In this document: positions 25,038 through 36,205 of the stretch, in pieces
Layout of the letters: every line of letters begins with the position of its first letter
How positions within the stretch are numbered: the first letter of the stretch is position 1
Source of the DNA: Candidatus Solincola quzhuomuensis
Lineage (GTDB): Bacteria > Actinomycetota > Geothermincolia > Geothermincolales > RBG-13-55-18
DNA: 42,740 bases
Direction of reading: 5' to 3'
Assembly (NCBI GenBank): GCA_015711855.1
Contig: JACVJF010000012.1
Location: 1-42,740, forward strand
The notes under the pieces: generated by a model
Told to the model about the DNA's origin: nothing
Databases searched by the model: none
Seen by the model: only the letters and a program-made list of their open reading frames with translations
Program-made: the position numbers and the translations under genes

Positions 25038-27035
25038 ATGGACATGGACGTCTCGCAGTATAAAGAACTATTCATAAACGAAGCCCAGGAGCACCTGGAG
25101 GCCCTCAATCAATCCCTGGTGGATCTGGAAAAGGACCCGGGAAACCCCGACGTGCTCACGGAGATATTTCGATCTGCGCACACCCTGAAGGGCATGTCGG
25201 CAACGATGGGGTTTGACCAGCTGACCGAGCTGGCCCACGAGATGGAGAACGTGCTCGACGGTTTGCGCAGCGGGGACATAGAGGCGTCTACCGAGATCGT
25301 GGACCTCCTATTCGGGTGCTTCGACCTCTTGGGCGCCATGGTGGCGGCCATCGCCGAGGGGAGCGCCCAGCCCATAGACACCCAACCGGTCATCGATGCC
25401 TTACGGCAAGCATACGGTGGCGGGAGCCCCACCTTTGTGCCCCGCAAGGCGCCGTCCGCCGGCGTAGAGAAGGAAAAGTCTGAGCGCGAGGCGGAGTCGC
25501 CCGTACCCGTTCCCCAAGAACTCGGCGGAGAGGAGGAGTTGCTGCGCCTGCGGGTGACCCTGGATAGGGATTGCGCCCTTAAATCCGTGCGGGTTTTCAT
25601 GATCTTCCGGAAGCTCTCGCAGTTGGGGAGGGTTGCCGGGTCGCGCCCCTCTATGGAAGACCTGGAAGACGAGAAGTTCGACCGCTCATTCGAGGTTTTC
25701 CTCATGACCGCCACGAAGAGGGAGGAGATTCGCAAGGAACTTCTGGCCATCGCCGAGGTCTCTCAGGTGGAGTTCCTGGAGGAAGAGGAAGCTTCCGGCG
25801 CGGAAACGGAAGAGGAACCCTCTAGGCCGGAGGAGATCGTCACCATATCTTCATCCAAGGAATCCGGCGCGGGAGCCGCCGTCCCCCTGCGCACGCAGAG
25901 CGTAAGGGTCAACATCTCGAGGCTGGACAACCTCATGAACCTCATAGGAGAGCTGGTTATAAACCGCACTCGCCTTCAGGAGATCGCCTCCTCCTACAAC
26001 ATACCGGAGCTCAAGGAGGCCCTGGCACAGACGGCACGCCTCACCGCCGACCTTCAGGATGAGGTGATGAAGACCCGGATGGTGCCCGTGGAGCATATCT
26101 TCAATCGGTTCCCGCGCATGGTTCGGGACCTGGCCAAGAACCGTGGCAAGGAAGTCGATTTCACCATGGAAGGAAGGGACATCGAGCTGGACCGCACCAT
26201 CCTGGACGAGATAAGCGACCCTCTTATGCACCTTCTGCGCAATGCGGTGGACCACGGGATAGACAGCCCGGAGGAGAGGGAGGCACGGGGAAAGCCCAGG
26301 AGGGGAAGCATCAAGCTGGCGGCGCGCCGCGACCGCAACTACGTTTCCATCGAGGTGTCCGACGACGGCCAGGGAATCGACGTACAGAAGGTTTGGGAGA
26401 AAGCGGTGGCGGCCGGACTGCTCTCTCCGGAAGACAGAAGGACTCTGGGCTCCGAGGAGGTGTTGCGACTGTTGACCGCCCCCGGCTTCACCACGACCGA
26501 CGAGGTGAGCGGGGTGTCCGGGCGAGGAGTCGGGCTCGACGTGGTGCGGAGCAAGGTGGAATCGCTGGGCGGGATGTTGGTGATGGAGACGGCCAAGGGA
26601 GAAGGGACCACGTTCGCCATGAAGCTGCCCCTGACGCTGGCCATAATCCAGGCCCTGCTGGTGAGGGTGTCGGGAGAGACGTACGCCATTCCCCTGGGCA
26701 CGGTTTCGGAAACCGCGGTAATTTCCTCGCACGAGATCAAGTCGGTTTCCGGCCAGGAGGTGATCTTCCTGCGTGACGAGACCCTGCCTCTGGTCAGACT
26801 GGCCAGGTGCCTGGGATTGCCGGAGGATGACGGCCATGGGACCTTCCCGGTGGTGGTGGTGGAGATAGCGCCGCGCAGCATAGCCGTCGCCGTGGACGAA
26901 CTGCTGGGCCAGCAGGAGATCGTCATCACCAGCCTGGACAAGTTTCTCAAGGGCATAAGGGGATTCGGAGGGGCTACCATATTGGGAACGGGGGAAGTGG
27001 CACTTATACTGGACATTCCTACCCTGTTATCCTGA
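25038..27035 (+). CDS. cheA: Chemotaxis histidine kinase CheA
   Basis: The 665-residue protein has all five CheA domains: P1 HPt with H48 (RSAHTLKG), a P2-like CheY/CheB docking domain at about 175-260 flanked by acidic linkers, P3 dimerisation (ISRLDNLMNLIGELVINRTR), P4 kinase (N-box HLLRNAVDHGI, DDGQGID, GRGVGLDVV) and a C-terminal CheW-like P5. It phosphorylates CheY and CheB. The ribosome-binding site is weak and two ATGs two codons apart are possible. It is preceded by cheB and followed by cheC 38 bases later. Confidence 0.96.
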   Translation: MDMDVSQYKELFINEAQEHLEALNQSLVDLEKDPGNPDVLTEIFRSAHTLKGMSATMGFDQLTELAHEMENVLDGLRSGDIEASTEIVDLLFGCFDLLGAMVAAIAEGSAQPIDTQPVIDALRQAYGGGSPTFVPRKAPSAGVEKEKSEREAESPVPVPQELGGEEELLRLRVTLDRDCALKSVRVFMIFRKLSQLGRVAGSRPSMEDLEDEKFDRSFEVFLMTATKREEIRKELLAIAEVSQVEFLEEEEASGAETEEEPSRPEEIVTISSSKESGAGAAVPLRTQSVRVNISRLDNLMNLIGELVINRTRLQEIASSYNIPELKEALAQTARLTADLQDEVMKTRMVPVEHIFNRFPRMVRDLAKNRGKEVDFTMEGRDIELDRTILDEISDPLMHLLRNAVDHGIDSPEEREARGKPRRGSIKLAARRDRNYVSIEVSDDGQGIDVQKVWEKAVAAGLLSPEDRRTLGSEEVLRLLTAPGFTTTDEVSGVSGRGVGLDVVRSKVESLGGMLVMETAKGEGTTFAMKLPLTLAIIQALLVRVSGETYAIPLGTVSETAVISSHEIKSVSGQEVIFLRDETLPLVRLARCLGLPEDDGHGTFPVVVVEIAPRSIAVAVDELLGQQEIVITSLDKFLKGIRGFGGATILGTGEVALILDIPTLLS

Positions 27036-27073
27036 TAATGCTGAAATAGACGGGGTTAGGGAAAGGAGGAGTT

Positions 27074-27688
27074 ATGGCCGAGAGGAGAGGGCTGACGCCC
27101 CTGCAGCTTGATGCCCTACGAGAGGTGGGGAACATTGGATCGGGCAACGCGGCGGTAGCCCTTTCGGCCATGGTGGATAAAAAGGTGATGTTGAGCGTAC
27201 CGCGGGCTTCCTTGGTTCCGCTGGTAAAGGTCTCCGATTTGGTCGGCGGCGCGGAAACACCCGTGGTGGGCATCTACCTCCACATCAGCGGGGATGCTTC
27301 CGGCAGCATGCTCCTGCTTCTTGAGGAGAACAGCGCTAGGGAACTGGCCCGCCTCATGGTCTCGGGGGAGGGCCAAGGGGAATTGAGCACCATCGAGCAG
27401 TCCGCCCTGCAGGAGACGGGGAGCATTCTGGCGGGCAACTACCTGAACGCACTCTCTCAGATGACCGGCATACTCCTCAAGCCTTCCGTGCCCGGTTTCG
27501 CCATGGATATGGCCGGGGCCATTATAGATTTCATCCTGGTGGAGATAAGCCAGTCGGAGGATTACGTGCTGGTCATCGAGACGGAGTTCGACGTCATGCA
27601 GCACAAGATCAGAGGGCACCTGATCCTGTTCCCGGACCTGGGGTCTTTGGATATCATTTTGGGAAGGCTTGGAGTGAGCGCGGATTGA
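27074..27688 (+). CDS. cheC: CheY-P phosphatase CheC
   Basis: The 204-residue protein has two pseudo-symmetric active-site motifs of the CheC/CheX/FliY family. The first is intact (D13, E17, N20, P43, with the expected 22-residue spacing). The second has S110, E114 and P140 but Ser117 in place of the catalytic Asn. In Bacillus and Thermotoga CheC dephosphorylates CheY-P and is stimulated by CheD. The strong AAAGGAGG before the ATG fits. The stop overlaps the cheD start by four bases. Confidence 0.93.
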   Translation: MAERRGLTPLQLDALREVGNIGSGNAAVALSAMVDKKVMLSVPRASLVPLVKVSDLVGGAETPVVGIYLHISGDASGSMLLLLEENSARELARLMVSGEGQGELSTIEQSALQETGSILAGNYLNALSQMTGILLKPSVPGFAMDMAGAIIDFILVEISQSEDYVLVIETEFDVMQHKIRGHLILFPDLGSLDIILGRLGVSAD

Positions 27689-28215
27689 CCGACGGCACCC
27701 TGATAGAACAGGTAGTGAACGTGGGGGTGGCGGAGTACTTCGTGACCCATAACCCGCACGTGCTGGCCAGCTATGGACTGGGAAGCTGCGTGGGAGTAGC
27801 TCTTTACGACGAGAAGAGGAGGATAGGGGGGCTGGCACACATCATGCTTCCCGATTCCAAGGCCATAAGCAAACCGGGAGGCCCGGGTCGTTATGCGGAC
27901 ACCGCTATCCGAGCCATGGTGGAGGAGATGGAGAGGCTCGGCTCCCGTCGTCGGGACATCAAGGCCAAGATGGCTGGTGGTGCCTGCATGTTCACCATCC
28001 CCGGAGCAAAGAACCCTAAAAACCTTCCGGGACCTGCCCTCGGAATGCAGATAGGGGAGAGGAACGTCGAGGCGGCAAGGCGCACCCTCGAGGAGCTCGG
28101 CATCCCCCTGGTGGCGGAGGACACCGGAGGTGATTACGGGAGGACCATGCGCTTCGACGTCTCCGACGGACGGGTGACCATAAGCTCCATAAAGCATGGG
28201 GTAAAGGAGCTGTGA
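27685..28215 (+). CDS. cheD: Chemoreceptor glutamine deamidase CheD
   Basis: The 176-residue protein has the catalytic LGSCVGVALYD (C35) and GGLAHIMLP (H52). The third triad position, normally Thr six residues before the Cys, is Ser29, a conservative change. CheD deamidates receptor glutamines and binds CheC. It starts with TTG, overlapping the cheC stop (ATTGA), so the two are translationally coupled. Confidence 0.95.
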   Translation: MTDGTLIEQVVNVGVAEYFVTHNPHVLASYGLGSCVGVALYDEKRRIGGLAHIMLPDSKAISKPGGPGRYADTAIRAMVEEMERLGSRRRDIKAKMAGGACMFTIPGAKNPKNLPGPALGMQIGERNVEAARRTLEELGIPLVAEDTGGDYGRTMRFDVSDGRVTISSIKHGVKEL

Positions 28216-28562
28216 TGGGCGAGACAAGAGGAGAAGGCGTGGAGGTCTCGCGGGAGGCCATAGCCGCCTTGGCCGCTCAAGCGGCCTGCGAGATTCCCGG
28301 GGTGGTGGCCTGTCATCAGAGCCCAGTGGAAAGCATAGCCTCGCGGGTGAAGAGGGAATTCTTGCACCGGGGCATCAAGGTGGAGCGATCCGACGGGGCC
28401 TACCGGCTCAGCGTGCATCTGAGGGTGGAGTACGGGGTGAACCTACCCTCACTGGCTCGCGAGGTGAGGAGGAAGGTAAAGGAATATGTGGAGGGGCTTA
28501 CCGACGTCCGCGTGGAGGAAGTGGACGTGGTGATCGAGGATATCGAGCCCCCAGCCGGTTAG
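28215..28562 (+). CDS. Asp23/Gls24 family envelope-stress-type protein
   Basis: This protein of about 115 residues matches the Asp23 (DUF322) fold: EVSREAIAALAAQAACEIPG, VVACH, GIKVERSDGAYRLSVHLRVE, YGVNLPSLAREVRRKVKEYV, LTDVRVEEVDVVIEDI. Family members are cytoplasmic proteins often linked to the membrane or cell-envelope stress. The ATG is shared with the cheD stop (TGATG); a GTG three bases earlier is also possible. Its tight coupling to a chemotaxis operon is unusual. Whether it acts in chemotaxis is unknown. Confidence 0.8.
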   Translation: MGETRGEGVEVSREAIAALAAQAACEIPGVVACHQSPVESIASRVKREFLHRGIKVERSDGAYRLSVHLRVEYGVNLPSLAREVRRKVKEYVEGLTDVRVEEVDVVIEDIEPPAG

Positions 28563-28601: not shown

Positions 28602-29606
28602 TCACACATCGTCCCCTCCCTCCTCGGGAGGAAGAAAATAGGAAGCCAAGGCCCGTGACAGGGCCTCGTTCATTTCTTGCGGTATGGAGCCCGAAGCCGG
28701 CCATTCCACAATCACGCAAGGCATGCGCGTCTCGCGCAGGAGAGGGAAGCTCCTTCCTTCGGGAGGAGAAACGGTACTCTTCCAGGCTTTGGAAAATTCC
28801 AGGGCAAGGAGATCGGCCAGCCGCTTTCCCCGTAGGGAAAAGTAGCGCTTTCCCCCGAAGTAGAAAAGCTGTACGTCGCCCCGCTCGCTCTTCCGAAAGC
28901 CGATCACGAGATCCGCGCCCTCTTGGTTGGCCAAACGGGCGCGCTCGCTCTCGTTGGGAAGCGGAGGGGTGTGACGGAACACGGTGAGCACAACCCCCAG
29001 TTTACTCGCGATATCCGCGGCACCGCTCAGGGCCGCCTCCGTGTCGGCCCCAGCTTCGGTGAGATCCAGGATTACCCGCCTGCCCTCCAGTCCCCGGTCC
29101 GAGATGTCCCGGAGTCCCTCGTGAACCACGGCCACGCTGGTTTCCTTCATGACCCGGCGTAGCCTCAGGAGGCAGGAAATGGTGGAAGAGCCGGCGATTC
29201 CGTCCACGGGGAGACCCATATCGTGTTGGAAAGCACGCAGGGCCCGGTCGGTTTCCTGACCGAATATGCCGTCCTCTCGACCGGCGTTGAAGCCCAGGCG
29301 GTTTAGGTATTCCTGCAGCTGCCTCACGTCGTCGCCCCGGAAGGGGGGTATTCGAAGATAAAGGAACCTGTCTCCCAGACGAAAGGAGGCCTCCACCAGC
29401 TCCCGCCAGGTGATCTCGTCCACCCGACCGTCGACCCGCAGACCGCGCTTGGTCTGAAATTCACGGACGGCCTGTTCGGTGCTCTCTCCGAAGCGGGACT
29501 CTCTCATCTCCATGTCGAAGCCCGGGGGCGAGAAACCGAGGTCGTGCAGTCGTTTCTGTACGTCGGAAACGGGTAGGCCGCGGTCGCCGCGTGCGATGGG
29601 GCGCAA
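28602..29606 (-). CDS. CwlM-like protein: two peptidoglycan-binding domains and a degenerate amidase domain
   Basis: The 334-residue protein has no signal peptide. Two PG_binding_1 domains (about 5-72 and 90-152, with VDGRVDEITW and FQHDMGLPVDGIAG) precede an Amidase_3-like domain (about 176-328). Where active amidases read D-P-G-H-G-G, it reads DLTEAG (181-186), and the S-x-H-x-N motif is GFRKS (236-240), so two zinc-binding histidines are gone. E301 in VIVEWP remains. The order matches actinobacterial CwlM, known as a cytoplasmic regulator of MurA. It starts at TTG, three bases after the kinase stop. Function by analogy: coupling of wall synthesis to signalling. Confidence 0.75.
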   Translation of the reverse strand: MRPIARGDRGLPVSDVQKRLHDLGFSPPGFDMEMRESRFGESTEQAVREFQTKRGLRVDGRVDEITWRELVEASFRLGDRFLYLRIPPFRGDDVRQLQEYLNRLGFNAGREDGIFGQETDRALRAFQHDMGLPVDGIAGSSTISCLLRLRRVMKETSVAVVHEGLRDISDRGLEGRRVILDLTEAGADTEAALSGAADIASKLGVVLTVFRHTPPLPNESERARLANQEGADLVIGFRKSERGDVQLFYFGGKRYFSLRGKRLADLLALEFSKAWKSTVSPPEGRSFPLLRETRMPCVIVEWPASGSIPQEMNEALSRALASYFLPPEEGGDDV

Positions 29607-29609
29607 CGG

Positions 29610-31709
29610 TCATTCCTCCTCGTGAACGGGCAGGGTGAATTTGAACGAGGAGCCCTTGCCCGGCTCGCTTTCCACCCAGATTCGCCCGCCGTGGCTTTCC
29701 ACGATGCCTTTGGATATCACCAGCCCCAGCCCCAATCCTCCCGCCGAGCGGGTCGAATCGGTTTCTACCTGGTAAAACATGGTAAAAAGCCTCTTCTGCT
29801 CGTGAAGCGGGATGCCAGGCCCCGTGTCCCGCACCTCGAATTCCACCACCCCCGGCTCCGCTGGCCGTCGGGCGAGCACCGTCACGGATCCTCCGGCGGG
29901 TGTGAACTTTATAGCGTTGCTGATCAGGTTTTCCAACACCTGGTGGACTCGCCAAACGTCCACGCTGACCGGGGGGAGCCCCTCTTCAACGTGATGGCTC
30001 AGCTCCAAACCTTTTTCCGCGGCCCGGGTCTTATATTCCGAGACGGCATTGACCACCAGCCCCTCAACGGGGGCCGGCCACCTCTGTCCCACCAGCCGAC
30101 CCTCTTCCAGGCGCGTGATGTCCAGCAGGTCGTTGATGATCTTGGTCATTTGGTCTGCGCGGGCGTTTACGATCTTGATCTTTTCCAACTGCAGGGGTGT
30201 GAGCTCTCCTAGTTCGCCGTACTGAAAAGCGTCGGCATAACCTTTGATTATGGACAGGGGAGTGCGAAGCTCGTGGGAGGCAATGGCGATGAAGTCGGAC
30301 TTCATCTTGTCCAGCACGGAGAGCTCCTCATAGGCTTTTTCCAAATCCTGGTGGCTCTGTTCCACCATGGCCTCCAGGCGCTTTCTCTCGCTCAGGTCGT
30401 GGGCTATTCCCACTATGCCGACGAAGCTCCCTCCTCGGAAGAGAGGGGCCGAACTTACCTGAACGGGAATAGGGGTTCCGTCCGAACGGCGCAGAAGGGT
30501 CTCGAAGAAGACCTTCTCCCCGCGACGACGCCTTTCCAGCATGCGCTCGATCTTGGCCACCTCCTCGGGCATAACGATGTCTCGCGGCTCTTTGTAGAGC
30601 AGCTCGTCCGGGAAGGTCAGTCCCAGCATATCCAGAAGGGTCTGGTTGCAGAAAGTGAACCGTCCCTGGGCGTCCATGGCGTAGAAGCCGTCGTTCAGGC
30701 TCTCGATAAGCAGGTTGAGATAGTCGGTGGTCTCGGCCAGACGTCGCTCCAAACGTACGTATTCGCTTACGTCCTCGAAAAGAAGCAGCGCCTCCCTCAC
30801 GTTGCCCGTTTCGTCCGTCAGCGGATGCAGCCGCACGCGGTGGAAGTAATCGACCCCCCCGACCACTTGGTGCACGCGGGGCTGCTCGAACGCCCTGGCC
30901 TCTATGAGCACCCGTCGAAGCACGTGTTTCCAGTCGGCGCGGAACTCCTGGGGCATGATATCCAGGGCGGGAAGCCCGGGCAGCGAGGAGGGATCGATGC
31001 CCAAGGTCTTGCTTATCCACTCCTGCATGGGTAGGTTGCACCGCAGCAGGCGGAAGTTGCGGTCCAGAACGGCGATCTTGACCGGCACTCCCTCGAAAAG
31101 CCCCGCTTCGCGCTCCGAAGCCTCCCTGAGCGCCGCTTTCTCCGAGGCTTCTTCGGTCACGTTCTCCAGCATGATCAGGAAGGAACCTCCCCATGCGGAG
31201 GTGGGAGGAAGCTCCCTGGCCCATACCCTAAAGACCCCTGAGCGGTCCTCCAGAAAATACTGCTCGGAGTGCCGATAAAGCTGCCCGCCTTCCTCCCGCG
31301 TTTTCTTCAGATATAACGTCCAGCTCCCGAAGAACGGCGGCAGCAGCGTCTCGTCCAGGCTTTTCCCGGCTTGCAGGACGGATTCCCGGCCTGTCAGCCG
31401 GGAGAGCTCTTCTGCCATTCGGTTGGCCGCCAATATCCGCCCCTCTTCATCGGCCAGCAGGGCCGGGTGGGGGAACAAGGAGAGGAAGTCCTCCACGGAG
31501 CTCGTGGGCGCTTGCGCCTTGTGACGGCGCCAGGCGGGGCTCGATAAAACGAATACGCCCAGCAGGAAGACGAAGAAGAGAGACGAGCCGGCGAAAAAGA
31601 CGGCCGCCGACCCCCACCCGAGAGAAGTCGAAACCAGGGAAAGAGCGACCGCGAGGAAGGACAAGACCAGGAACACCCCGACTCCTGCGACCCTAGCCTT
31701 GGTCTTCAC
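29610..31709 (-). CDS. Membrane-anchored three-PAS histidine kinase
   Basis: With the GTG start (AAGGAGG nine bases upstream) the protein has 699 residues. It has two membrane segments in the first 60 residues with a very short loop, then three PAS-type domains (about 75-190, 205-320, 330-445), a coiled coil, the HisKA motif SHELRTPL with H479, and HATPase_c (N-box NLISNAIKF, DTGPGI, GLGLGL). The absence of an outside domain and the PAS array suggest cytosolic sensing. Its start overlaps the previous gene by 17 bases. A GTG 13 codons earlier is the alternative. The obvious partner is the receiver protein encoded upstream in the same cassette. Confidence 0.9.
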   Translation of the reverse strand: MKTKARVAGVGVFLVLSFLAVALSLVSTSLGWGSAAVFFAGSSLFFVFLLGVFVLSSPAWRRHKAQAPTSSVEDFLSLFPHPALLADEEGRILAANRMAEELSRLTGRESVLQAGKSLDETLLPPFFGSWTLYLKKTREEGGQLYRHSEQYFLEDRSGVFRVWARELPPTSAWGGSFLIMLENVTEEASEKAALREASEREAGLFEGVPVKIAVLDRNFRLLRCNLPMQEWISKTLGIDPSSLPGLPALDIMPQEFRADWKHVLRRVLIEARAFEQPRVHQVVGGVDYFHRVRLHPLTDETGNVREALLLFEDVSEYVRLERRLAETTDYLNLLIESLNDGFYAMDAQGRFTFCNQTLLDMLGLTFPDELLYKEPRDIVMPEEVAKIERMLERRRRGEKVFFETLLRRSDGTPIPVQVSSAPLFRGGSFVGIVGIAHDLSERKRLEAMVEQSHQDLEKAYEELSVLDKMKSDFIAIASHELRTPLSIIKGYADAFQYGELGELTPLQLEKIKIVNARADQMTKIINDLLDITRLEEGRLVGQRWPAPVEGLVVNAVSEYKTRAAEKGLELSHHVEEGLPPVSVDVWRVHQVLENLISNAIKFTPAGGSVTVLARRPAEPGVVEFEVRDTGPGIPLHEQKRLFTMFYQVETDSTRSAGGLGLGLVISKGIVESHGGRIWVESEPGKGSSFKFTLPVHEEE

Positions 31710-32070
31710 GGCGCTCTTCCTCCTTGCGGCCGGAGCCGAGCAGTTCACCCCATATCCATCCCCAATACTTGGACACGGCGAAGAGGGCGAAGGTTATGGC
31801 GATGGTCATGGGTATGGAGGCCACCAGTATCTTGATCACCAGGGTGGCAAGCGGCTCGGGCTGAGGCAGGCCCCATGCCTTGAGAAGGAGCAGAACCCAG
31901 GCTACGGGAAGGGGAAGGATGAAAAAGAAGACGGAGACGAAGAAAAGCCGGTAGTACGGCGGAAGCTCCAATGCCTCGCCCAGGCGGCGGCTCATGACCA
32001 TCAAAAGCATGAGCATAGTCCCCACCGAAAGGGGTCCGATGATGTAAAGGGCGGAAGACAGGTAAATCAT
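31693..32070 (-). CDS. Small membrane protein, unknown function (three predicted helices)
   Basis: The 125-residue protein has hydrophobic segments at about 4-26, 39-64 and 72-98 and a charged C-terminal tail (GSGRKEEERREDQG). No family is recognised. The ATG overlaps the stop of the preceding small membrane gene (ATGA), and the 3' end overlaps the kinase start, so it is part of a tightly coupled set. It may form a complex with its neighbour and the kinase; this is inference from context. Confidence 0.75.
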   Translation of the reverse strand: MIYLSSALYIIGPLSVGTMLMLLMVMSRRLGEALELPPYYRLFFVSVFFFILPLPVAWVLLLLKAWGLPQPEPLATLVIKILVASIPMTIAITFALFAVSKYWGWIWGELLGSGRKEEERREDQG

Positions 32071-32372
32071 TTTCCCAGCATCAAACGGTAAACCCTGTAT
32101 ATGATCGTGAACAGGCAGAGGCCGGCCAGGGCGGGCCAGACGGCGAACCAGATATAAATGGCCACCACGGATCCGCCCATGGAATATATGAAGGTGCTCG
32201 TCCCCATGAGCACGAAGAAGGGAAAGACCAGAAAGGCGTATGTGCGCCCGCCGAACTTTTTCTCCGCCAGTCGGCAGATGCCGTAAAAATACGCCAGCAC
32301 CAGTCCCGTCGCCGAGGTGTTGTAGAACCAGAGGAACAGGGACGCGGTTTTCCACCAGTCGTAGGATGTCAC
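32067..32372 (-). CDS. Small membrane protein, unknown function (three predicted helices)
   Basis: The 101-residue protein is highly hydrophobic and aromatic, with segments at about 11-30, 44-64 and 68-92. It starts at GTG behind GAAGGGGGAAGG. No family is recognised. It lies 41 bases after the receiver gene stop and overlaps the next membrane gene by four bases. The pair look like a co-folded two-subunit membrane component. Confidence 0.72.
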   Translation of the reverse strand: MTSYDWWKTASLFLWFYNTSATGLVLAYFYGICRLAEKKFGGRTYAFLVFPFFVLMGTSTFIYSMGGSVVAIYIWFAVWPALAGLCLFTIIYRVYRLMLGK

Positions 32373-32413
32373 CCTTCCCCCTTCACGCCAACTTTAACGG
32401 ATACGTTTGTGGA

Positions 32414-32809
32414 TCAGGAACCACCGGTCCTGCGCCTGCGCTCGTCGAGGATACGCCTCACCTCGGTCAGCAGTTCCTGTTTGCTGAAGGGCTTGGTTAT
32501 GTATCCTGCCGCCTTCATCACCGAGAGGCCGATCATCTTGTCTATGTTCTGAGTCCTTGCGGTGATAAAGGCGACCGGCGTGTCGTGGACTTCTGGATCG
32601 TTCTTGATGCGCCGAAGCACTTCCCACCCATCGATCCTGGGCATCATGATGTCCAAAAGTATCAGGTCCGGCTTCTCGCGGAAGGTCTTTTCCAGCGCCT
32701 CCTCCCCAGAAAAAGCCCTGATGGTGGCATACCCGGCATTGCCCAGAAAGAGTTCGATCAGCTCCACCATCTCGCGATCGTCGTCCACGATGAGGATCTT
32801 TTCCCCCAC
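32414..32809 (-). CDS. Single-domain response regulator
   Basis: The 131-residue receiver has D9/D10 (and D11), phospho-acceptor D53, T83 and K106, and no output domain. The C-terminal extension is Arg-rich (DERRRRTGGS). The GTG start directly follows the TAG of the KaiC-like gene, so they are coupled. It probably receives phosphate from the PAS kinase encoded downstream and acts by protein contact, perhaps on the KaiC-like ATPase. This is inference from gene order. Confidence 0.88.
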   Translation of the reverse strand: MGEKILIVDDDREMVELIELFLGNAGYATIRAFSGEEALEKTFREKPDLILLDIMMPRIDGWEVLRRIKNDPEVHDTPVAFITARTQNIDKMIGLSVMKAAGYITKPFSKQELLTEVRRILDERRRRTGGS

Positions 32810-33622
32810 CTACCTTCCCTCCCCTTTGCCGCCGGACTTTCCCCTGGGCCCGAATACCTCCATGAAGGCGTCGATCTCCTTTTTCCTGGGCAAGCCGGAG
32901 AGCACGCCCTCCCGATCCTTGAAGGGTTCCCCTATCCTGATGCCTTCGTCGGTGATCCAGAACTCTCTTATGGTTTTATCGTGTGAGCTGGCCCGCTGCT
33001 TGAGAACCATGACGGCCCTGGTTATCGAGGAGTCAAGCTCCACGTAGCGCAGAACAATTACCGCATCTACCAAATAGGATATGCCGTACTGGGCGGCGGC
33101 CATATCCCCGGTGATGCCCGGATCCTCCTGGGTCACGAAGGCCGTAAGCCCGTGGCGGAGCAAAGCGTTGGTGAAGGTGAAGGCTATCTCGCGGAGCTTG
33201 ACCGGGTCGCGGGCCAGCCTCTCCAGGTGGGATATGGAATCCACAAGCACTCTCTTGGCGCCCAACTCCTGTACCATGGTGTCCAGGAGCCCGCCGGAAA
33301 CTTGAGCCTGTTCAAAGAAGATCTCCGGGGAGGTGAAAAGGATGCGCACCAGGCCTTTGCTCTCCAGGTCCTGGAGGTCGAATCCCAGGGAAAGGGCATC
33401 TCGCAGCAGCTTTTTGGGGAAGTGCTCGAAGGTAATGATAAGCCCCGGCTCCCCGTAATCTATGGCTCCCCGAGAGATGAACTCCAGCCCCAGGCACGTT
33501 TTTCCGGTTCCCGGCGGTCCCAACACCAGGGTTACCGAACCCCGGAAGGGCCCGCCGTCCATCATCTCGTCGAGCCGGGCGATACCCGTGGACGCTCTTT
33601 CCTGCACTCGGTTATCATCCAT
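32810..33622 (-). CDS. KaiC-like RecA-superfamily ATPase (single KaiC domain)
   Basis: The 270-residue protein has STGIARLDEMMDGGPFRGSV, Walker A GPPGTGKT (35-42), Walker B RVLVDSISHL (D128) and the KaiC-type C-terminal strand region (AVIVLRYVELDSSITRAVMVLK). In KaiC the catalytic Glu pair reads FEE; here it reads TFEHF, so one Glu is His66. It is a single domain rather than the tandem form of cyanobacterial KaiC. Such proteins often pair with two-component regulators in archaea and bacteria. The ATG at 33622 is preferred; an upstream TTG would extend across a TATAAT box. Confidence 0.88.
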   Translation of the reverse strand: MDDNRVQERASTGIARLDEMMDGGPFRGSVTLVLGPPGTGKTCLGLEFISRGAIDYGEPGLIITFEHFPKKLLRDALSLGFDLQDLESKGLVRILFTSPEIFFEQAQVSGGLLDTMVQELGAKRVLVDSISHLERLARDPVKLREIAFTFTNALLRHGLTAFVTQEDPGITGDMAAAQYGISYLVDAVIVLRYVELDSSITRAVMVLKQRASSHDKTIREFWITDEGIRIGEPFKDREGVLSGLPRKKEIDAFMEVFGPRGKSGGKGEGR

Positions 33623-33960: not shown

Positions 33961-34234
33961 GTGATCGTGCTAAGCGGGGAGCTAGCGGTGCCCTGTACCC
34001 GCAATCCGCTATAGCGGGGCCGAATTCCCAACTGAGGCTCTCCGATCTTGAGTATTGCGCGCCGGCAAGTGGCGTTGAAGGCCGGGTCCTGCGCGACGGG
34101 AACTTGCGAACCCCGTCAGGTCCGGAAGGAAGCAGCGGTAAGCAAATCTTCCCGGGCGCCGCAGACAAACCTGGCCGGAGCCAACTACCGGTGTAGCGCT
34201 TGGGGTCGGGAGTCGAGGGAGGGTGCACGATCAC
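33961..34234 (+). ncRNA. ffs: Signal recognition particle RNA, large type with Alu domain
   Basis: The apical S-domain hallmark GTCAGGTCCGGAAGGAAGC (34115-34133, GGAA tetraloop) is followed by AGCGGTAA. The 5' part carries the Alu-domain sequence GTGCTAAGCGGGGAGCTAG and TGTACCCGCAATCCGCTA. The first ten bases (GTGATCGTGC) pair perfectly with GCACGATCAC at 34225-34234, closing helix 5 and giving a length near 274. With Ffh it targets nascent membrane proteins. Position ahead of dnaX matches Bacillus scr. Exact ends are inferred from pairing. Confidence 0.93.
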
Positions 34235-34309
34235 ATAAAATATATCTGCCCGAAAATCGAAGCCGGGCACGGAGGAGACGGTTTGTCCCGCGATGTAGCC
34301 GGGGGGAAA

Positions 34310-36205
34310 ATGACCTACGTTTCCCTATACCGCAAGTGGAGGCCCCAGACCTTTGAGGAGGTGGTGGGGCAGGAATACGTGACCAGGACGCTGGCCAATG
34401 CCCTGCGTAACGGGAACTTCGCCCATGCCTATCTCTTCGCCGGGCCCCGGGGGACGGGAAAGACCAGCACGGCGCGCATCCTGGCCAAGGCCCTCAATTG
34501 TGAGGAAGGCCCTACTCCCAACCCCTGCAATCGGTGCGCGTCTTGTCGGGCTATAACCGAGGGCATCTCGGTGGACGTGGTGGAGATAGACGCCGCCTCC
34601 AACCGGGGCATAGACGACATCCGGGATCTGCGGGAAAAAGTGATATTCACCCCGGCCTCCTCGCGGGTTAAGGTCTATATCCTGGACGAGGCCCACATGA
34701 TCACCAAAGAGGCCTTCAATGCTTTCCTGAAGACACTGGAGGAACCGCCGGCACACGTCGTCTTCGTGTTGGCGACCACCGAGCCGCACAAGATGCCCCA
34801 GACCATTTTGTCCCGTTGCCAGAGGCACGATTTTCGGAGCGTCCCCGCTTCGCTGATGGCGGACTACCTACGCAGGGTCGTGGATGCGGAAGGCTTCCGA
34901 GTGACCGATGAAGCCCTGCGCCTGATAGCCAGGCGTGCCAGGGGCTCGGTCCGCGACGCCCTGGTGACTCTGGAGCAGCTCGCCAGTTACGGTGACGGAG
35001 AGGTGGATGAATCCGATGCGGCGGGATTTCTGGGCCTGATCGAGGACGAGATGCTGATCAGCATGGGAAACGCCCTTATATCCGGGGACGCCGGCGAGGT
35101 AGTCGAGCTCGTGGAAAGGGCATACGACCAGGGCCGGGACCTGGCCCATTTCGCGGCGCAGGTTCAGGAGCACTTTCGGAGGATATTGCTGCTGCAATAC
35201 GCCCGGATAGGTCCGGCGGAGTTGGAGGTCGACGAGGTTTCCTACCAGGAGCTGAAGCGCCAGGCTTCGGCTCTCCAACCGGGGCAGGCTTTTCACTTCA
35301 TATCCTCCCTACGCTGGGCCCAGGAGGAGATGAAGCGCGCTTCCGCTCCCCGACTGGTGCTGGAGAGCGCCCTTATCGCCATGGCCCGGGAGAGCATGGA
35401 GGTCGACCCGGATGCCCTTGCCGCTCGCCTGCGTAAAGTGGAGGAAGAAGTGGAGAGGCTCGCAAGGCGGCTGGTGCGAGCCGAGGAGGAGGCACGCACG
35501 GCGGCTTTGCCGAGCAGGGAGGCGGAAAGCCCGTCCGGGAGCAGGGAACGGGCTTTGCGGGAGAAAGCCGCCCGCGTAACCGGAGAGGCGACCGGAGAGG
35601 GCGATCAAGGGGCGGTCGAGCTTTCACCTCCGGAAGCCGGCGAAAAGGCTCCTTCTCCGCCGGCCCCTATGGATCTGCCCGCGGTGCGGCGCTCCTGGGC
35701 AAGAGTGAAGGAGCGGGTGAAGGAAAAGAAAGTCACCACCCACGCCTTCCTGCTGGAAGGGAAGCCTCACGAGATCAAAGGCAGGGAATTGGTCATCTCC
35801 TTTCCTCCCGACCGGTCTTTCCATCGCGGGGAGATGGAAAAGGAGGTCCATAGGCGCGTGCTGGAGGAGGCCCTGGAGGAGGTGTTGGGGGTTCGCCTGC
35901 GCGTTTCCACTTGTTTGGAAAATAATGGGAACGAACTCGGGGATGCCCCGGCGATTGCGGCACCCGCGGCGGCAAGGAAAAGGGCTTCCCGTGCCGAGCG
36001 AAGCGGGATAGGATCCGATCAGTCGGAGGCAGCGTCCGAGGCGGAGAAAGGCGCCGAGCAGGCGGAGATATGCCCGAGTGGCAAAGAAGAAGAGTCCCCT
36101 ACCCCCACGGGCAAGGGGTCCGAGGCAAGCGAGACGAGCAAAGTGAAACTGGTCGAGGACGTTTTTGGTGCGGAGATGGTGGAGGAGATCAAGCTCCAGG
36201 AATAG
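34310..36205 (+). CDS. dnaX: DNA polymerase III gamma/tau subunit
   Basis: The 631-residue protein begins MTYVSLYRKWRPQTFEEVVG. It has Walker A GPRGTGKTS (45-53), a zinc module with C64, C73, C76 and C79, Walker B-like VYILDEAHM and sensor 1 LATTEPHKM. The AAA+ clamp-loader core is followed by a collar and a long charged Glu/Arg/Ala-rich tail (about 400-631) that contains a short tau-like folded stretch (RSWARVKERVKEKK). No A-rich slippery site for a gamma frameshift is visible. The ATG lies 75 bases after the SRP RNA; frames opening inside the RNA are rejected. Confidence 0.96.
   Translation: MTYVSLYRKWRPQTFEEVVGQEYVTRTLANALRNGNFAHAYLFAGPRGTGKTSTARILAKALNCEEGPTPNPCNRCASCRAITEGISVDVVEIDAASNRGIDDIRDLREKVIFTPASSRVKVYILDEAHMITKEAFNAFLKTLEEPPAHVVFVLATTEPHKMPQTILSRCQRHDFRSVPASLMADYLRRVVDAEGFRVTDEALRLIARRARGSVRDALVTLEQLASYGDGEVDESDAAGFLGLIEDEMLISMGNALISGDAGEVVELVERAYDQGRDLAHFAAQVQEHFRRILLLQYARIGPAELEVDEVSYQELKRQASALQPGQAFHFISSLRWAQEEMKRASAPRLVLESALIAMARESMEVDPDALAARLRKVEEEVERLARRLVRAEEEARTAALPSREAESPSGSRERALREKAARVTGEATGEGDQGAVELSPPEAGEKAPSPPAPMDLPAVRRSWARVKERVKEKKVTTHAFLLEGKPHEIKGRELVISFPPDRSFHRGEMEKEVHRRVLEEALEEVLGVRLRVSTCLENNGNELGDAPAIAAPAAARKRASRAERSGIGSDQSEAASEAEKGAEQAEICPSGKEEESPTPTGKGSEASETSKVKLVEDVFGAEMVEEIKLQE

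Follow-up and report, generated by a model that had tools for sequence, protein, structure and literature searches.

A single-domain KaiC-like ATPase, two small membrane proteins that we call M1 and M2, and a stand-alone receiver, usually accompanied by a histidine kinase, form an undescribed signalling unit that is common to two bacterial phyla, the Actinomycetota and the Fibrobacterota. In the window analysed here, a 42,740-nucleotide stretch of Candidatus Solincola quzhuomuensis, this unit makes up the greater part of a six-gene cassette that ends in cwlM. The host, with an assembly of 2.69 Mb, belongs to the family Ca. Geothermincolaceae in the class Ca. Geothermincolia of the Actinomycetota. 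We suggest as the best explanation, and as a reasonably probable one, that an ancient kinase/receiver/KaiC/M1-M2 signalling module became joined to an older resident cwlM.

Table 1. Genes of the cassette and the neighbours that mark its boundaries (window coordinates).
Feature	Position	Strand	Basis or remark
KaiC-like ATPase, single-domain, 270 aa	32810..33622	-	Pfam PF06745, 5.6e-48
Receiver, stand-alone, 131 aa, Asp53	32414..32809	-	Pfam PF00072, 1.8e-27
M1, 3-TM membrane protein, 101 aa	32067..32372	-	no Pfam/NCBIfam family
M2, 3-TM membrane protein, 125 aa	31693..32070	-	no family over cut-off
Membrane PAS histidine kinase, 699 aa from GTG 31709	29610..31709	-	Pfam
cwlM: two PG_binding_1 and a degenerate Amidase_3	28602..29606	-	Pfam, alignment
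dnaX, then ebfC, recR; divergent neighbour, insertion-boundary marker	34223..36205	+	adjoins cwlM in sister orders, kaiC here
cheA-cheC-cheD-asp23; convergent neighbours, other boundary marker	25038..28562	+	cheA-cheC-cheD adjoin cwlM in sister orders

The six open reading frames occupy 28602-33622 of the minus strand, reading KaiC, receiver, M1, M2, kinase, CwlM, and all were found packed on one strand with the junctions that an earlier note on this DNA had described. The KaiC stop codon directly abuts the receiver start (TAG then GTG, no gap), M1 and M2 share an ATGA overlap, M2 overlaps the kinase by 17 bases if the latter starts at the GTG behind AAGGAGG, and 3 bases separate the kinase from the CwlM-like frame; the 41 bases from receiver to M1 are the sole looser junction. 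Searches with Pfam and NCBIfam put a name to four of the frames but assign M1 and M2 to no family. All six genes are under purifying selection, with dN/dS against a congener of 0.09 for KaiC, 0.06 for the receiver, 0.15 for M1, 0.22 for M2, 0.17 for the kinase and 0.27 for CwlM. Selection on every gene, together with the return of gene order and junctions in other members of the order, takes the cassette beyond chance. Terminator and promoter scans gave nothing above shuffled sequences. A large bacterial SRP RNA lies between kaiC and dnaX (33965-34230, plus strand; Rfam, 219.8 bits), and a tRNA-Pro placed by ARAGORN within the kaiC coding region (33463-33552, minus strand) was judged a probable false positive.

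Conservation of the cassette extends through the order Geothermincolales, of which 17 genomes carry module genes. M1 occurs in the same genomes as the KaiC orthologues (16 other genomes of the order), as does M2, and the 4-base M1/M2 overlap is kept in nearly all of the order's loci. In family f1, and in G015 of family f2, the map runs from cheA-cheC-cheD-asp23 through the convergent cwlM-kinase-M2-M1-receiver-KaiC to the divergent dnaX-ebfC-recR; asp23, assigned by Pfam, is thereby also present at the locus within the order. A contig break splits the cassette in G011, and no cassette genes were found in G009, an assembly that is 62% complete.

Beyond the order, an M2 profile run over 396 genomes of the phylum matched one other genome, G206, in addition to the order's members; weak matches in G092 and G355 (E 0.003-0.008) were left out of the counts. 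The G206 genes are arranged M1-M2-kinase-receiver; immediately ahead of M1, the first 100 bases of the contig translate to EKFEGREGILTGSPRSMPARAFVEAFGKRR and a stop, the terminal part of a KaiC gene. Four Fibrobacterota loci with M2 emerged when contigs of GTDB genomes were scanned, those with readable frames having the order KaiC-M1-M2-receiver, and across the Fibrobacterota phylum M2 is present in 40 of 168 genomes (30 loci by tblastn and 10 more). KaiC lies one small gene upstream of M2 at all 40 of these loci and a matching receiver lies downstream at 38; neither an adjacent kinase nor cwlM was found in these modules. At three of them (L150, L156, L157) a second, different receiver gene overlaps the first, and the L156 module has argF upstream and uvrA downstream. 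Taken over both phyla, M2 adjoins M1 and KaiC on one strand at all 58 of the M2 loci counted, a count that includes one locus across a contig break, one with a contig-cut KaiC and one (G015) with eroded M1/M2. As M2, wherever it was found, is neighboured by a single-domain KaiC gene, the ancient core is therefore KaiC-M1-M2-receiver, to which the kinase was added in Actinomycetota. The earlier note had proposed searching for joint occurrence of all six genes, and what emerged is one conserved unit of KaiC, receiver, M1 and M2, with the kinase in Actinomycetota, whose order and junctions recur; cwlM is no part of it. The note had also considered that M1 and M2 might mostly stand apart from the ATPase, but at no locus did they occur without a KaiC gene nearby.

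M1 and M2 each represent a protein family for which neither Pfam nor NCBIfam has a model. The three helices claimed for each in the earlier note reappear in the AlphaFold models, both of which have three membrane-length helices (M1, pLDDT 79, helices 3-40, 46-65 and 69-98; M2, pLDDT 78). In both models the first helix leads into a basic loop that is conserved, as is the C-terminal tail: YGICRLAE.KF and YR.YRLMLG in M1 and RRLGEAL.LPPYYRL and YWGWIWGEL in M2; by the positive-inside rule, loop and tail would face the cytoplasm. Searching the PDB for folds with the two models returned nothing under E 2, and M2 had no match on plasmids. The possibility that M1 and M2 are mutual paralogues was rejected (hhalign 0.4%), and the match of M2 to LPG_synthase_TM (E 0.007, below cut-off) was put down to chance, as were other weak Pfam matches. 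Among 59 relatives M1 was found only in Geothermincolales, save for one marginal match in G058 (E 0.007) that was left out of the counts and had no KaiC in its neighbourhood when read.

Profile comparisons argue firmly for homology of M2 across the two phyla (Geothermincolales versus Fibrobacterota, hhalign 98.5%, E 3e-15) and of M1 with its G206 counterpart (96%, 1.4e-9). For M1 against Fibrobacterota the value is 64% (about E 7e-5; 6.6e-5) with G206 as a bridge and 1% without it, so that homology here is only suggestive and rests mainly on position, length, topology and a basic ..KKF loop; six Fibrobacterota loci with wrongly auto-picked M1 frames were excluded from the M1 profile. At the G015 locus (L116 7980-9340) stops and changes of frame interrupt M1, M2 and the kinase, and the PAS part is missing, beside an intact KaiC, receiver and CwlM, which reflects either decay or an assembly error.

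The window KaiC has the features of a KaiC-type RecA-like ATPase, with the Walker A motif GPPGTGKT at residue 35 and the catalytic Glu66 kept. The second catalytic Glu is a His in this protein, as in most of Geothermincolales, and a Glu in the Fibrobacterota modules and in a Geothermincolaceae paralogue. Orthologues in 16 other members of the order are 55-86% identical, and the KaiC tree within the order has f2 branching before f3 and f1 (support 96/77); it left the sister status of the two phyla's module KaiCs undecided, with several outgroup rows poor or in the wrong frame. The paralogue, 50-57% identical, lies at another locus in Geothermincolaceae genomes (L082 6009-7220; L083, L084, L086), whereas the window's assembly yielded no copy of it. 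Where loci of the L082 type were read, it is followed directly by a 121-aa winged-helix-like gene and M1/M2 are absent, so M1 and M2 belong to one KaiC lineage.

The best PDB matches of the window KaiC are KaiC CII domains (3.8e-76), and these closest solved relatives might suggest that the cassette is a KaiC-based clock or timer. Sequence tests led us to reject that reading, which we consider highly improbable: the protein has a single KaiC domain, the clock sites S431/T432 are Ser/Tyr, with Tyr at the T432 position, no Ser/Thr pair was found at these positions in the KaiCs of the Fibrobacterota modules, and KaiB is missing from all 15 order genomes searched (the window's genome and 14 other members). 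Phosphorylation sites are, moreover, generally missing in short KaiCs (PMC5520375). While the cassette thus resembles the cyanobacterial KaiABC-SasA-RpaA system in joining a KaiC fold to kinase and receiver partners, it differs in all these respects, and also in that its receiver is without a DNA-binding domain. Within the class, a sister order has two KaiB genes next to a two-domain KaiC (L210, L212; G019:C3 381647-382245), possibly a KaiBC system in Actinomycetota.

Another parallel is offered by archaea, in which KaiC-like ATPases are treated as signalling hubs by Makarova, Galperin and Koonin 2017 (via PMC5847659). These archaeal hubs likewise associate a single-domain KaiC-type ATPase with two-component genes; unlike them, the present unit is bacterial, occurs in two phyla and has a fixed, undescribed 3-TM pair, though the 2017 survey may mention membrane partners. 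In another actinobacterial class (L099, G049:C63 3372-6013; L213-L222), two small membrane proteins come after KaiC; in L099 they are 103 and 132 aa long, overlap by 4 bases and have no Pfam family. A winged helix and a Roadblock-like gene stand next, and the locus is divergent from dnaK. The membrane proteins of this type are not recognisably homologous to M1 and M2, and the winged helix replaces the receiver and kinase. Likeness in size and topology, rather than homology, suggests that single-domain KaiCs may be paired with small membrane proteins more widely.

The receiver and kinase have the makings of a two-component pair. The phospho-site residues of the receiver are present (Asp53, Asp9/10, Lys106), and its subfamily has the signature IDKMIGL..M.A.GYITKPF; identity is 71-93% within the order, 56% to G206 and 36-39% to the Fibrobacterota modules. 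The kinase has two N-terminal TM segments, PAS domains, HisKA (His479) and HATPase_c according to Pfam, and its orthologues are 63-78% identical within the family. The sensor of the G206 kinase is Tll0287-like, not PAS.

The last gene of the cassette is the actinobacterial cwlM, which lies outside the module core. Its product has two PG_binding_1 domains (2e-39) and an Amidase_3 in the expected place (24 bits versus a cut-off of 27), and the N-terminus, MRPIARGDRGLPVSDVQKRL, read by eye, has no hydrophobic segment and hence no visible secretion signal. CwlM was matched in 56 of 59 genomes, strongly in 53, and most genomes of the phylum have a single clear homologue; the matches in G043, G052 and G057 are weak, PG-binding ones only, and were left out of the strong count. 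The pseudo-amidase had been taken for a member of the signalling system in the earlier note. That claim did not hold, as cwlM is present in nearly all relatives searched, mostly apart from the ATPase and kinase genes, which is the condition that the note itself had set for giving it up, and was already at the locus beside dnaX before the module was inserted.

In sister orders CwlM keeps the D[AP]GHG, Glu and SIH of the zinc site (DxGHG..E..SIH). In the window protein DxGHG has become DLTEA, SIH has become GFR and a loop is deleted; judged by sequence, it lacks the His/Glu/His ligands of an active Amidase_3 amidase. All Geothermincolales CwlMs have lost the first His together with about 15 loop residues, and those of f1 have also lost the second, which G016 (f3) keeps. 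Loss of the zinc site is also seen in actinobacteria without the module, namely mycobacteria and G051. Mycobacterial CwlM, with a degenerate zinc site, works as an activator of MurA (PMC4946905), and a regulatory role is therefore naturally expected here. The PknB-CwlM-MurA system and the window protein share two PG-binding domains, a degenerate amidase domain and the absence of a signal peptide, and at another place the window's genome encodes a PASTA kinase of the Ser/Thr type (L144; several PASTA repeats), so that control of the PknB type is possible. The differences are that the window gene stands behind a KaiC/two-component module and that its product has neither the phospho-tail nor, at its place, the REEEL patch through which mycobacterial CwlM contacts MurA (PMC12723410). 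Geothermincolales CwlMs end at the amidase domain without the tail (PTG/TGT), the sole PTG match, in G011, falling in the last part of that domain. This absence weakens the identification as CwlM while still allowing it, the C-terminal phospho-motif being conserved in most, not all, clades (Boutte 2016). Read from these residues, the mechanism must differ in detail from the mycobacterial one.

How module and cwlM came together can be read from sister orders (G019-G023), in which, where the contig shows it, cwlM directly adjoins dnaX in the same orientation; on contigs that extend far enough, cheA-cheC-cheD flank its other side. Between dnaX and cwlM these genomes showed neither a KaiC orthologue nor M1 or M2, while in Geothermincolales the five-gene module sits exactly there; as cwlM is the resident beside dnaX in the sister orders, the module was inserted between the two and cwlM became the tail of the operon. 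Elsewhere in the phylum the neighbours of cwlM are trxB-trxA and parAB (G051). In family f3 (G016, G017) the module adjoins dnaX and cwlM adjoins asp23-cheD, the halves lying on different contigs with unrelated genes at the break on each, so that cwlM is separate from the module. Since f2 branches before f3 and f1 in the KaiC tree, the best reading is that the linked state is ancestral and the f3 arrangement a later break.

The mechanism that we propose for this conservation, gene order, insertion site and zinc-site loss is as follows. The PAS histidine kinase would phosphorylate the stand-alone receiver, as the adjacency of their genes suggests, and the receiver would control a KaiC-type ATPase ring, presumably a hexamer. 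M1 and M2 would hold this ring, and probably also the kinase, at the membrane by docking. Output would be by protein contact, because the module has no recognisable DNA-binding domain. CwlM, its amidase site lost, would act as a regulator of wall-precursor synthesis like its mycobacterial counterpart, encoded by a gene that had occupied the locus earlier and came to close the operon once the module had been inserted between it and dnaX. We thus read the module as a membrane-tethered, receiver-controlled KaiC switch, distinct from a clock, with cwlM captured by its operon and CwlM possibly its output; co-transcription of cwlM with the module, any effect of the module on CwlM, and thus the link from a PAS signal to wall synthesis drawn in the earlier note, are what we infer.

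It is about as likely as not that cwlM is a passive passenger, sharing a transcript without regulatory meaning while the module acts elsewhere. The gene was at the locus first and is found phylum-wide without the module, it is separate in f3, and 40 modules of the Fibrobacterota phylum do without it, as well as without a kinase next door; the occurrence of zinc-site loss without the module and the missing phospho-tail and REEEL patch likewise speak against a functional tie. For such a tie, and against a passenger, are the tight kinase-cwlM junction in f1, near-invariant at 3 bases (most f1 genomes have the start of cwlM about 3 bases past the kinase), and loss of the zinc site throughout the same module-bearing order.

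A different role for the membrane proteins, in which they would serve the histidine kinase as accessory sensor subunits instead of anchoring KaiC, appears unlikely, although M1/M2 adjoin the kinase in Actinomycetota, where the G206 kinase has a Tll0287-like sensor domain, and although M1, M2 and kinase look eroded together in G015 with KaiC, receiver and CwlM intact. In Fibrobacterota, however, M1-M2 accompany KaiC and receiver where an adjacent kinase is absent. More speculative still is a reading in which M1/M2 form a so far undescribed receptor or anchor that binds KaiC rings at the membrane, and in which peptidoglycan synthesis in Geothermincolales has been rewired, with the catalytically dead CwlM under a KaiC/two-component switch that replaces PknB or works beside it. 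If true, this would be a KaiC-controlled cell-wall switch.

KaiC relatives outside cyanobacteria are common and their partners mostly obscure, and the fixed KaiC-M1-M2-receiver unit supplies a partner set, a concrete and testable one for a non-clock KaiC in two distant phyla. The insertion between dnaX and cwlM is, in addition, a clear case of a signalling module that captured a wall regulator, with the zinc site of that regulator lost in the same lineage.
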